Shown: positions 1 through 3,934 of the stretch, piece by piece
How the letters are laid out: each line of letters starts with the position of its first letter
How positions within the stretch are numbered: position 1 is the first letter of the stretch
DNA from: Terriglobia bacterium
GTDB lineage: Bacteria > Acidobacteriota > Terriglobia > Bryobacterales > Bryobacteraceae
Length of the DNA stretch: 37,075 nt
Assembly: GCA_020073345.1 (NCBI GenBank)
Contig: JAIQFI010000051.1
Span: forward strand, 1-37,075
Reading direction: 5' to 3'
Made by a program: the position numbers and the translations under genes
Notes under the pieces: model-generated
What the model was told of the DNA's origin: nothing
Databases searched by the model: none
What the model saw: only the letters and a program-made list of their open reading frames with translations

Positions 1-125
1 ACGACGACGGCTCGCCGCACCCGCGCGTATAACTCCACTGTGTACACCTCTCCGGTGTTCCACAAAACATAAGCCTATGGGAATGTTCGATGGAACCAGT
101 CTCCTGGCGGTCTGGTTTTGCTCCG

Positions 126-166
126 CCAGTTAAGCCGCTCACGCGGCGTTTACTGGTCTATTTTGC
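126..166 (+). terminator. Candidate terminator hairpin at left edge
   Basis: An imperfect inverted repeat runs from 126 to 156. Outer arms CCAGT/ACTGG and inner arms GCCGC/GCGGC enclose a TCAC loop, with one mismatch and one bulge, and TCTATTTT follows. It could end a plus-strand gene lying left of the window, or be an integrase arm site near the HTH gene. The rest of 1-229 shows no convincing gene. Confidence 0.35.
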
Positions 167-229
167 ATCCGGCGCTTATAGTATGCCGCCGGAATAGGGC
201 AGGGCAGGGGGCAGCCGATCCATCGTAAG

Positions 230-526
230 ATGGATCGACCCGCCATGGCCCGCGACAAAGGACCGTACACGACGATCACAACTCCCGAGATCGCGCAGCG
301 CCTCGGATTGAGCGAGGAAACCGTCTACGGAATGCTCAAGGCCGGAGAGATCCCCAATATCCGCCGCCGCCACCTGTTCATCGTCTCCCGCACGGCCTAC
401 GAACAGTGGGAAGCCACAATCGGCAACCCCGGCGCCACGTCCCGGCCCGTGACAATCACGAGCGGCGCTGTCTACGGCCCCATCAGCAGCAGCCAGATCC
501 TGTCCGACAAAAAACCTGAAAAATAG
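230..526 (+). CDS. Excisionase-like helix-turn-helix DNA-binding protein
   Basis: A small (98 aa) protein with one MerR/excisionase-type winged helix (HTH_17 pattern) at about residues 15-60. TTPEIAQRLGLSEETVYGML forms the helix-turn-helix, followed by the usual wing ending in a Trp near AYEQWEA. The C-terminal 35 residues look disordered. Proteins of this kind act as recombination directionality factors or small regulators. It lies 38 bases before a tyrosine integrase on the same strand, which suggests a Xis role (inference). The start could be ATG 230 or the in-frame ATG at 245; neither has a clear ribosome binding site. Confidence 0.8.
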   Translation: MDRPAMARDKGPYTTITTPEIAQRLGLSEETVYGMLKAGEIPNIRRRHLFIVSRTAYEQWEATIGNPGATSRPVTITSGAVYGPISSSQILSDKKPEK

Positions 527-534
527 CGGAATCG

Positions 535-546
535 GCTAACGGGAAT
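535..546 (+). repeat. 12-bp repeat shared with tRNA-Glu (candidate att core)
   Basis: GCTAACGGGAAT occurs here, 18 bases before the integrase ATG, and again in the same orientation at 3867-3878 inside the acceptor and T-arm of the tRNA-Glu gene. Tyrosine integrases often recombine in exactly that part of a tRNA, and their att site often lies next to int. The repeat is short, so chance is not excluded. Confidence 0.35.
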
Positions 547-564
547 TGTGTGTAGAATCCTGTC

Positions 565-1761
565 ATGGCCATTCGCAAACGCACGTGGAAAACGGCCGCC
601 GGAATGAAGACCGCGTGGTCTTATGTATTCGACGCCCCCGGATCAACCCGTCAAAACCGCAACCAGATCTTCGAAAGCGGATTCGCGTCCAAGAAGGAAG
701 CGCAGGATGCCGAAACCGCCCGCCGTGTCCGGGCGCAGCGGGAATTCGATCTGGGCAAGGACACGCCGGCGGAAGTGCCCGGATCGTTACAGGGCTTGTT
801 GACCGAATTCTTCACCGAGCACGGCGCGAAATCTCTGGCACCGAAAACACTGGCGCGCTACCGCGAGATGGTCCCGTATCTCGACGGCGATTTATTGGCC
901 ATGCCCATACCCGCCATCAAGCCCTTGCACCTCACACGTGAATGGAACCGGCTACTGACCGCCGGGGGCAGGGGCCGCCGGGCGGGAAAGCCCCTCAGCC
1001 GCAAGACCGTGCGCAATATCGCGGGGCTGTTATCGAGCGCCTTCACGCGTGGCCTGCGATGGGGTATCGCGCAGATCAATCCCGTGCCCGCCTCCGATCC
1101 GCCGGTCCCGAAGAAAAAGGAAGGCATCGCCCTAAGCATCGAGCAGGCCGATCAGCTCATCGCGGGCGCAACCGCGCCGTGGGGCATGAACGTCTTTCTG
1201 GAGCTGGACGCCGCGACCGGGGCGAGGCGAGGGGAGCTGCTGGGGCTTCAATGGTCGGATCTCAATGGCAATCACCTGACGATCGGCAGGTCATTGTCGC
1301 AGGTCGGGCAGGAGGTTTTCCTGAAAGAACCCAAGGGCAAGAAATTCCGGGTCATCACGATTCCACCCACGGCCCTGAAAAAGCTTCACGCCCACCGTAA
1401 GGCGCAGGAACCGTACCGCCAGCATTTCGGCCGCAGTTATCAAGGGGATTATATTTTCTGCAATCCGGACGGCTCGCCCCTGAAGCCGGACACGGTGTCG
1501 GCCTCGGTGTCGCTGCTGTTCCGCACCCTCAACTTGCCGAAAGGAGCCAGCCTGCACAGCCTGCGTCATACTCACGGCTCGCACCTGCTAGCCGCCGGTG
1601 TGCCAATCACGGATGTCAGCAAACGCCTCGGCCATGCCAACCCCCATGTGACGGCCACGGTCTACGCTCACGCGCTGCCCGGCCACGACGATCAGGCCGC
1701 CGATGCGTGGGAGAAGTTTCAGAGGAATGGAAGACCTGCTAAGGTCCGACGGCGGAGGTAA
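565..1761 (+). CDS. Site-specific tyrosine recombinase (phage-type integrase)
   Basis: A 398-aa integrase of the lambda family that cuts and rejoins DNA at attachment sites. Residues about 1-65 resemble an arm-binding domain, 75-175 the SAM-like core-binding domain, and 190-385 the catalytic domain. The active-site set is complete: R221 in TGARRGE, a Lys near 257 in the KGKKFR hairpin, H331-x-x-R334 in HSLRH, H357 in LGHAN, and nucleophile Y367 in VYAHAL. There is no good ribosome binding site before ATG 565, but TAGAAT at 553-558 could be a -10 box giving an almost leaderless mRNA. The stop codon directly follows a GGAGG that serves the next gene, so the two are probably co-transcribed. Full length and apparently intact. 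Confidence 0.95.
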   Translation: MAIRKRTWKTAAGMKTAWSYVFDAPGSTRQNRNQIFESGFASKKEAQDAETARRVRAQREFDLGKDTPAEVPGSLQGLLTEFFTEHGAKSLAPKTLARYREMVPYLDGDLLAMPIPAIKPLHLTREWNRLLTAGGRGRRAGKPLSRKTVRNIAGLLSSAFTRGLRWGIAQINPVPASDPPVPKKKEGIALSIEQADQLIAGATAPWGMNVFLELDAATGARRGELLGLQWSDLNGNHLTIGRSLSQVGQEVFLKEPKGKKFRVITIPPTALKKLHAHRKAQEPYRQHFGRSYQGDYIFCNPDGSPLKPDTVSASVSLLFRTLNLPKGASLHSLRHTHGSHLLAAGVPITDVSKRLGHANPHVTATVYAHALPGHDDQAADAWEKFQRNGRPAKVRRRR

Positions 1762-1766
1762 GTTTA

Positions 1767-2471
1767 ATGGCGATCAATGGGCACAGAAGTGGACAGAAGC
1801 CTAAGATAAACGCCTTCATCTCCTACTCGCATGAGGATCGCAAATTCGGTGCCGAAGCCAAGGCCGTTTTGGCCGAAATCGGCATCGGCGCGTTTCTGGC
1901 CCATGATGATCTGCATGTATCCGAGGAGTGGCGCGCCCGCATCATCGAAGAGCTGCAGCGCTGCGATCTATTCGTTCCGTTACTGAGCGCCAACTTTCTC
2001 ACATCGAAGTGGGCGCCTCAGGAAATCGGCTTCATCATTTCGCGGCCTCAAGTGGCCATTGCTCCCATCTCGCTCGACGGCACCACGCCTTTCGGCTTCA
2101 TCTCTCACGTTCAGAGCCGCAAGATCACCAAGGACGGCATTACCCGTGAGCTTCTCATTGAGCCGCTCGCCCGGCGGATGCCGCGCCAGATTTTGCCCGG
2201 CCTGATTCAGCTTGCTGGAAAGGCAGGCAGCTTTCGTTCCGCCGAAGCATTGATGGCCCCGCTCGTTCCTCACTTTCCGATTTTTACGACTGACGAGGCG
2301 CAGGCCCTCGCAGCTGCTTCTGTCGAGAACGGCCAAATCTGGCTGGCGGCCCTGTGCAAGACCGAGTACCTGCCCGAATTCGTTCATCACCAGGGCAAAA
2401 ACATCGACGCGAAGACGCTGCGCGCGCTCAACTACCAGATTGAACACGGCGAATGGTATAAGGGCGATTGA
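1767..2471 (+). CDS. TIR-domain protein
   Basis: A 234-aa protein with an N-terminal TIR domain at about residues 13-120. It shows KINAFISYSHEDRKF, then FLAHDDLHVSEEW, LLSANF (S74) and W82-x3-E86, a layout common in bacterial TIR proteins. TIR domains cleave NAD+ or make cyclic-ADP-ribose signals in anti-phage defence, or act as adaptors. In the helix after W55 the residues are R56-A57-R58, where I expected the catalytic Glu of NADase TIRs; the only nearby acids are E53-E54. Activity is therefore uncertain. Residues 120-234 match no domain I know. GGAGG at 1754-1758 lies inside the end of the integrase gene, 8 bases before this ATG. The stop overlaps a possible TTG start of the next gene. Confidence 0.88.
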   Translation: MAINGHRSGQKPKINAFISYSHEDRKFGAEAKAVLAEIGIGAFLAHDDLHVSEEWRARIIEELQRCDLFVPLLSANFLTSKWAPQEIGFIISRPQVAIAPISLDGTTPFGFISHVQSRKITKDGITRELLIEPLARRMPRQILPGLIQLAGKAGSFRSAEALMAPLVPHFPIFTTDEAQALAAASVENGQIWLAALCKTEYLPEFVHHQGKNIDAKTLRALNYQIEHGEWYKGD

Positions 2472-2506
2472 TCTTTCTGCCGCGCGTGCTAGTTGATGAA
2501 TCGACT

Positions 2507-3805
2507 ATGGCAACAAGGAAGCGGACTGTGCCCAAACGGACGAAGAAACAGGTCAAGCGCAAGACGGCAAGGTCCGCGCGGGCGAAGGCTTCAGTCAAAG
2601 CGCTGCCGCCCGACGAACCAGAGATTCTCTCGCTCTGCATCAGCTGCGCCAAGCACCCCGCTCTGAAATCCTTCGTCAAGCGATGCGGGGAAAAAGGACA
2701 CGAGTGCGGCATCTGCCACCGCACTGACCAACTCGCCTCGCCACCGTCTGTTCATACTGCGCTGTCCTCGCTCGTGCGCGCCCTTGTGAGGTTTTACTAC
2801 GACGAGTGGATCTACAACGGACACTGGGGTGGGGACGAGGAGCCCGAAGCGCTCCTGTGCCACGAGAACGCAATTGTCGAGCATGCCAAGACGCCCGGAT
2901 TTACCCGCACGGCTCAGGATTCAGAAGTGTTTCTCACGACCCTCTTTGATCCGCCATATCCCGACTATGACAAGGGAATCGCTGTCTACGCCGGCCATCA
3001 TGACGGAATAGGACGCTTGCCACCGATGAGCGCGATTAGTACGTCCATGTCGCCCGTCTACAGAGGCATTAAGGACCGTCTGAAGCACGAGAACTACTTC
3101 GAGATCCAGGACGAGTTTGAGAAACGCCTAGCCACCTTCGATTCAGAGCTTGCTGCCGCTCTGCCAGCGGGGACGGTCCTGTTCCGTGCGCGACAGGGGG
3201 TCGCGCGACGGTATATCCGTGGTTTTGGCTGGGAAGCTGAGACGATCTATCAGCCCTACCTCGGCAAGGAGATCGGTGCACCACCGCCGCCGCGAGCGAC
3301 CGCCGGACGATTGAACAGGGAAGGTGTATCATTCCTCTATCTCGCCACCGACGAAAAGACCGCCGCTGCCGAGCTACGCCCGCATCCCGGACATTACCTA
3401 TCCGTTGCCGCGTTCCGCAGCACGAAAAATCTTCGTGTGATCGACTTCGGCGCGATCGACATCGGAAGCTTTTCCTCCTCGGACGTACGCCTTGATATGT
3501 TCTACCTTGGACACACGATCAGCCGCGAGATCGGCCTGCCGATCATTCCCGAAGAACGGCATCGCTATAGCATCACGCAACTGCTGGCCGACATCGTGCG
3601 CCGTCGTGGTTTCGATGGCATCCGGTTCCCGAGTTCACTCGGCACAGGTTCGAACTATTGCATCTTCAAACCCGCGCTGTTCAAGGCCCAGGACCGCTCA
3701 GCCAAGGTCGTGTACATCAAGCGCCTGCACTACGACATCGAGAATGCTGCTCACCTGATCAAGCCCACTGAGGACGATACGGAATTGCCCGGATCGGGTG
3801 ATTGA
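2507..3805 (+). CDS. RES-domain protein with zinc-ribbon/HEPN-like N-terminus
   Basis: A 432-aa protein. The N-terminus is basic. CISC and CGIC pairs then form a probable zinc ribbon leading into the domain often seen before RES domains (HEPN/RES N-terminal type). The RES domain covers about residues 220-405. Its three defining residues are visible: R227 in LFRARQG, E289 in AAAELRPHPG, and S376/S377 in RFPSSLG. RES toxins such as MbcT destroy NAD+ by phosphorolysis or hydrolysis and normally pair with an Xre/MbcA antitoxin. None is encoded here. A TTG at 2468 overlapping the TIR stop (TTGA) would add 13 residues and couple the two genes; I prefer ATG 2507. The neighbours (TIR, integrase) suggest a defence role (inference). 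Confidence 0.85.
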   Translation: MATRKRTVPKRTKKQVKRKTARSARAKASVKALPPDEPEILSLCISCAKHPALKSFVKRCGEKGHECGICHRTDQLASPPSVHTALSSLVRALVRFYYDEWIYNGHWGGDEEPEALLCHENAIVEHAKTPGFTRTAQDSEVFLTTLFDPPYPDYDKGIAVYAGHHDGIGRLPPMSAISTSMSPVYRGIKDRLKHENYFEIQDEFEKRLATFDSELAAALPAGTVLFRARQGVARRYIRGFGWEAETIYQPYLGKEIGAPPPPRATAGRLNREGVSFLYLATDEKTAAAELRPHPGHYLSVAAFRSTKNLRVIDFGAIDIGSFSSSDVRLDMFYLGHTISREIGLPIIPEERHRYSITQLLADIVRRRGFDGIRFPSSLGTGSNYCIFKPALFKAQDRSAKVVYIKRLHYDIENAAHLIKPTEDDTELPGSGD

Positions 3806-3815
3806 TTTCTAAAAT

Positions 3816-3835
3816 GTGTGAGCAAGTGTGAGCAA
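3816..3835 (+). repeat. Tandem 10-bp repeat between RES gene and tRNA
   Basis: GTGTGAGCAA occurs twice head to tail, 10 bases after the RES stop codon and 24 bases before the tRNA-Glu 3' end. Short direct repeats beside an attachment site may be integrase arm-binding sites, but nothing else here tests that. Confidence 0.5.
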
Positions 3836-3859
3836 TATGTCTGTAACTTATTGAAAACT

Positions 3860-3934
3860 TGGTAGCGCTAACGGGAATCGAACCCGTATTTGAGCCTTGA
3901 GAGGGCTCCGTCCTAACCGTTAGACGATAGCGCC
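3860..3934 (-). tRNA. tRNA-Glu (anticodon CTC)
   Basis: Read on the minus strand this folds as a full cloverleaf. The 7-bp acceptor stem is GGCGCTA with TAGCGCT (one G-U at the first pair). It has a D-arm GTCT/GGAC, an anticodon stem GAGCC/GGCTC around the loop CTCTCAA (anticodon CTC, reads GAG), a T-arm ACGGG TTCGATT CCCGT, discriminator A and an encoded CCA at 3862-3860. It lies 21 bases downstream of the beta-repeat gene on the same strand. Its 3' end faces the integrase-TIR-RES module, the side on which tRNA-integrating elements sit. Confidence 0.97.
3867..3878 (+). repeat. 12-bp repeat inside tRNA-Glu (second copy of candidate att core)
   Basis: Identical to 535-546. On the tRNA it spans the 3' half of the T-arm and part of the acceptor stem, a frequent crossover position for tyrosine integrases. 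The two copies would delimit a 3.3-kb segment containing only int, TIR and RES. Confidence 0.35.

Follow-up and report, generated by a model that had tools for sequence, protein, structure and literature searches.

The window analysed here, 37,075 nucleotides in length, is the whole of contig C26 from genome G000. Near its left end, four plus-strand genes encoding an excisionase-like helix–turn–helix (HTH) protein, a tyrosine integrase (int), a TIR protein and a RES protein are faced by the 3′ end of a minus-strand tRNA-Glu gene (Table 1). The int, TIR and RES reading frames are open and colinear, and an alternative start for RES is the TTG at position 2468. The integrase is intact, with R221, H331, R334, H357 and Y367, which we take to be its catalytic positions, all present; it lies beside the tRNA gene, at a distance of 2.1 kb from the tRNA 3′ end that is larger than in its relatives. 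The two-gene insertion sequence that ends the contig is presumably IS21-like. It has five further copies in the same genome, one of them partial, and the copy on contig C5 continues into a reading frame with Mu-transpos_C_2 and rve matches. The hexamer TAGAAT upstream of int reads TACAAT in G005, a genome of the same genus. Since it ends 6 bases before the int ATG (window positions 553–567), int may be transcribed without a leader.

Table 1. Features at the left end of the window, with the basis for each assignment
Feature	Position	Strand	Basis or remark
End of two-gene insertion sequence	1–181	minus	Includes first transposase codons, to about position 65; contig stops inside
HTH gene, excisionase-like	230–526	plus	HTH_17; NCBIfam excise model above cut-off
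12-bp match to tRNA T-arm	535–546	plus	Within int promoter region
TAGAAT, possible −10 box of int	553–558	plus	Read from window/G005 alignment; putative promoter role
Tyrosine integrase, 398 aa	565–1761	plus	Phage_integrase (Pfam)
TIR protein, 234 aa	1767–2471	plus	TIR_2 (Pfam); ThsB-like PADLOC matches
RES protein, 432 aa from ATG	2507–3805	plus	RES (Pfam); alignment of four
Arm-word pair, GTGTGAGCAA twice	3816–3835	plus	Starts 44 nt from core
27-bp att core, tRNA-Glu 3′ end	3860–3886	plus	Putative; free copies in relatives
tRNA-Glu (ctc), docking site	3860–3934	minus	ARAGORN

When the tRNA region was searched for in 61 genomes, numerous short stretches matching the tRNA 3′ end turned up in addition to tRNA genes, and from these matches we deduce a core of 27 bp, TGGTAGCGCTAACGGGAATCGAACCCG. 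A 23-base form of the core, with at most two mismatches, is present in 55 of the 61 genomes, mostly as the tRNA itself, and its reversed control is found in none. We then surveyed direct repeats of 7–11 bases at 34 core sites, 14 of them in tRNA genes and 20 free. To the left of the core, a pair of repeats with a period of 10 starts 40–48 nt away at 21 of the 34 sites (random windows, 55/947); where the pair is missing from its usual place, two sites have repeats elsewhere and 11 have none. To the right, a pair with a period of 11 starts 124–132 nt from the first base of the core at 16 of the 20 free cores, at none of the 14 tRNA cores and in 34 of 960 random windows; L036, one of the free cores that lack it, has too little DNA on that side. 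Element ends are thus marked by word pairs of about 10 nt at near-fixed distances from the core. The words differ among elements and several recur at left and right ends alike, as expected of integrase arm sites, and we infer that the word pairs have this function. Some right ends (L023 at 4954, L030, L082 and L004) have an extra copy of CTAACGGGAATC about 45 bp upstream of the core in place of the word pair.

The sequence-only reading of this DNA has tRNA-Glu as the docking site of a tyrosine-integrase element whose TIR and RES genes lie to the same side of the tRNA as the integrase, and this description holds. It also placed the element between two copies of a 12-bp sequence, as a minimal unit of 3.3 kb containing only int, TIR and RES and leaving the HTH gene outside. 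The repeat itself, GCTAACGGGAAT, is exact at both 535–546 and 3867–3878. Just 26 of 2000 dinucleotide shuffles of positions 181–3859, and none of 18 native control stretches from the rest of the window, contain a direct 12-mer in common with the 75-nt tRNA; the repeat is uncommon, yet not compelling as a single match picked from the whole window. Against such a unit, positions 215–1723 align to the HTH–int region of G005 in one stretch with 76% nucleotide identity, running through position 535, and the window's CTAACGGGAATT corresponds to CTAACGGGTTTT in G005, so that the 12-mer is not kept; beyond this sequence G005 has a conserved promoter-like stretch and then the int start. A boundary at 535–546 is contradicted by this colinearity and by the lack of conservation of the 12-mer. 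Nor does the HTH gene behave as an outside neighbor: it sits a short way upstream of int, in the same orientation, in eight of nine comparable relatives (L027, L043, L044, L046, L047, L048, L057 and L059, but not L049). The count takes in relatives of at least 46% identity in which the start of int is complete and the DNA before it is available, and it omits L045, L058, L035 and fragments, which are truncated. The free copies in relatives, moreover, display the 27-bp core, a second copy of which, with matching words, is found on another contig of G000 at C25:35697. We therefore consider the 3.3-kb element extremely improbable. A different role for the 12-mer, compatible with our main explanation, is that it is not a chance match but works in autoregulation, as a core-like site for the integrase within the int promoter. 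Part of it, CTAACGGG, is kept at the equivalent place in G005, so a regulatory role is possible, and the KplE1 paper describes overlap of int promoters with att sites, and int autoregulation, as widespread (PMC2951348). The final bases of the 12-mer match are not conserved in G005, however, and the site is absent from the int-upstream stretches of eight other relatives, which makes this role quite unlikely.

The data favor the earlier fallback, which puts the true left end outside the window. In G000 the core occurs exactly twice, in the tRNA of the window and as an exact 27-bp repeat at C25:35697. The exact pair GTGTGAGCAA N0–3 GTGTGAGCAA also occurs twice, at C26:3816–3835 and C25:35824–35844; overall it is present at eight places in six of the 61 genomes, with no occurrence of the controls. 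The C26 pair starts 44 nt to the left of the core, as in G049 (right-end spacing), and that of C25 begins at a distance of 127 nt from the start of the core, as in G005 C70 and G021 C210 (left-end spacing). The C25 arm is 79.7% identical to that of G005 C70 over 128 bp, and G005 has an 80%-identical integrase at its own tRNA-Glu. Because core and word pair each occur twice in G000, and adjoin one another both times, C25:35697 most likely represents the left end of the window's element. The DNA between the two ends would comprise 1.7 kb of C25, in which a methyltransferase gene lies, then a gap and then the insertion sequence. The C25–C26 link is unassembled, because the insertion sequence ends the contig at 1–181; no end overlap and no bridge were found between the two contigs. 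The competing possibility is that C25 holds the left end of a different, neighboring element and that the window's own left end lies on unassembled DNA. Relatives do hold several core-bounded units with differing arms, and the lack of overlap is in line with this idea, as is an assembly of 98 contigs at 97.5% completeness. The exact word pair is nevertheless confined in G000 to these two places, each with the expected spacing, and we give the neighboring-element alternative only a small chance of being correct.

Apart from itself, the C25 tail has only two partial matches in its own genome. Seven C25 proteins have no match at other tRNA-Glu or core sites, beyond weak ones (33–37%) of a single repeat-rich protein to L077 and L073. 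Besides the missing overlap, several observations count against C25 as the left end. Apart from the core and a few adjacent bases, nothing in the other 22 genomes of the genus corresponds to the C25 left flank, and hence no empty site is seen among them. In G016 C150 and G018 C148, GTGTGAGCAA pairs occur with no core where one would be expected, so the word pair is not an infallible mark of an end, and the pair in G018 C31 is 99 nt from its core. The period-10 pair, too, is missing from its usual place at 13 of the 34 sites.

The position of the TIR and RES genes is best seen by comparison with the integrase relatives. The integrase match ends about 71–128 bp from the core at nine loci (L027, L046, L035, L043, L057, L023, L050, L045 and L055), and at a tenth, L111, the int reading frame ends about 40 bp from it. 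In one survey of 17 loci, six have a core near int, the L050 core having three mismatches; the remaining loci have no core within 1.5 kb or are associated with another tRNA (tRNA-Ser for L051, tRNA-Gly for L054). In the window, TIR and RES (about 2.05 kb) occupy the interval between int and core, and their GC content is 57–59% vs 62% for HTH–int. The plainer reading is that the TIR–RES block was inserted between int and its arm sites; loss of the block in the relatives is a possible alternative. Among viral contigs we found no relative of the integrase. Among the relatives examined, it would be unusual for an integrase gene to be separated from its own arm sites by captured cargo.

Both cargo proteins have features of their families. 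The TIR protein has Glu86, presumably the catalytic position, in the sequence SKWAPQE, and its C-terminal part is predicted to be helical with low confidence. Its structural model is poor (mean pLDDT 58); a fold search with this model ranks TIR domains first, none at an E-value of 0.001 or better. The RES protein has R240, R242, E302 and S389, which we assume to be catalytic, and cysteine pairs near the N terminus, but its model is unusable (mean pLDDT 32). Sequence searches of the PDB, at the limits used, matched neither protein. The best TIR relative is a 71% match (68% over the whole alignment) in an Acidobacteriaceae MAG that has no HTH, int or RES match; at an E-value of 1e-25 it is the only match in 396 genomes of the phylum. 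Five plasmid records match TIR at 29–36%, and viral contigs and phages yield none. RES matches 150 records of the plasmid collection (43, 37 and 35% for the top three) and eight viral contigs, among which four match over almost the full length at 31–39%. Matches to the RES domain only are found in two other genomes of the 396 and in three of 250 class genomes, and the RES scan of genome contigs found nothing.

From their families, TIR and RES are candidate NAD+-attacking defense proteins, both families acting on NAD+ (PMC9503650). They could form one two-gene mobile defense system, in which TIR would be the sensor or signal maker and RES the NAD+-consuming effector. This idea concerns the cargo and is compatible with our main explanation. 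Apart from the shared substrate, it is favored by the ThsB-like matches of TIR and by the adjacency of the genes on the same strand, with a 35-bp gap or, depending on the start chosen, overlapping stop and start. However, the 71% relative of TIR occurs by itself, PADLOC gives no match for RES at an E-value of 0.1, and no TIR match at an E-value of 0.01 lies near the tested RES loci, which comprise four records, four genomes of the class or phylum (one of them, L115, itself without a hit) and eight viral contigs. No second TIR–RES pair is found among the genomes and records searched, so the pair is unsupported as a conserved system. A joint system is thus possible but doubtful. In the listed titles and abstract openings by which the literature was judged, we recognized no report of the TIR–RES pair or of the tRNA-Glu family.

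The wider family includes many units that differ in their relationship to the integrase. A profile of the window's integrase family over 25 free-core stretches matches three (L023, L078 and L110) and leaves 22 without. The general Pfam integrase model, applied to ten genomes, has none on the eight other G005 free-core contigs among the matches listed. G021 C210 and G000 C25 do have a Pfam integrase match elsewhere on the contig, so ‘integrase-less’ means here that the window's integrase family is not close by. Complete units of this type are 1.7 kb (G018), 2.0 kb (G034) and 2.6 kb (G030) in length. The last is in tandem with a 10.2-kb unit that has an integrase, an order seen in G030 only. Core-bounded units of G018 and G030, which belong to different genera, encode proteins that are 71% identical (L103 314–1621 and L023 2498–3865); the L103 copy has no Pfam or PADLOC match. 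A defense scan covered nine proteins picked by choice rather than as a census. Six proteins near G005 free cores match models for Cas1, Cas4, DrmD, a phospholipase effector, a PD-T4-6-like kinase and a UvrD-type helicase, among others, and the C25 methyltransferase matches mad2; the G034 and G018 cassette proteins in the scan have no match.

Free cores are numerous, with varied words and mixed cargo, in G005 (L071–L079), G009 (L080–L082) and G012 (L083–L084). These loci are mostly without the window's integrase family nearby, and some have defense-gene matches. G005 has ten free cores on nine unjoined contigs. Two of them, on C31 (L076 at 7470 and 8214), are inverted and 0.7 kb apart, which could reflect a misassembly, an inversion or the presence of two sites. 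With cores spread over nine contigs and an inverted pair among them, G005 does not fit a simple tandem order cleanly.

We consider it likely that window positions 1–3886 are the right-hand part of a larger tRNA-Glu element whose left end is probably on C25, with TIR–RES as inserted cargo. In our model, the element would recombine the 27-bp core at the tRNA-Glu 3′ end, the HTH protein and the tyrosine integrase acting as the recombination pair, and the integrase is assumed to bind the core together with element-specific arm-word pairs of about 10 bp at both ends. The left end would be at C25:35697, with the insertion sequence and an assembly gap between C25 and the window. The TIR–RES block of 2 kb would have been inserted between int and the right-end arm sites; it is read in the direction of int, may be co-transcribed with it and may have a role in defense. 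A more far-reaching idea is that the tRNA-Glu locus is an integron-like docking array, in which one or a few resident HTH–integrase units would acquire and shuffle small integrase-less cassettes sharing the core and words, each integrase unit reading its own arm word and several cassettes carrying defense genes, and that the window has captured TIR–RES inside its own integration module. We regard this as rather unlikely.

In the larger-element model, what appeared to be a minimal element becomes a member of a family with readable ends. The near-fixed distances of the arm words may be used to pair element ends across contig gaps and to assign integrase-less units to an integrase, and mobilization in trans of small, partly defense-bearing cassettes becomes directly testable.

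In the accretion/CIME model of ICESt1-type elements, recombinase-less att-bounded units are reportedly found next to recombinase-bearing ones. That arrangement is also seen here, in G030, and the model is cited inside a paper that describes a close precedent, the ssrA islands of Dehalococcoides (PMC3146451). These islands are in tandem and bounded by copies of an RNA-gene 3′ end; some have an integration module and 15 do not, the latter being proposed as cis-mobilizable. The ssrA islands use serine recombinases (DsiB/DsiA), whereas the window has a tyrosine integrase and an HTH protein at tRNA-Glu, with TIR–RES as cargo. Tycheposons (PMC10872708) are like the window in being tRNA-bordered cargo elements with a tyrosine recombinase, but their tRNAs and hosts are others. 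For the cargo, the likeness to Thoeris is the TIR_2/ThsB-like domain; Thoeris has a ThsA partner, whereas the TIR neighbors here are int and RES, with no PADLOC match to ThsA. The likeness to RES-Xre toxin–antitoxin systems is the RES domain with its R, E and S positions. There, however, an Xre antitoxin adjoins RES, whereas the RES gene of the window has TIR upstream and the putative arm sites and tRNA downstream, and its product has an N-terminal part that is additional to RES-Xre toxins. The window is thus best filed as a further member of the known elements bounded by tRNA or other RNA genes, the unusual part being the position of its cargo.
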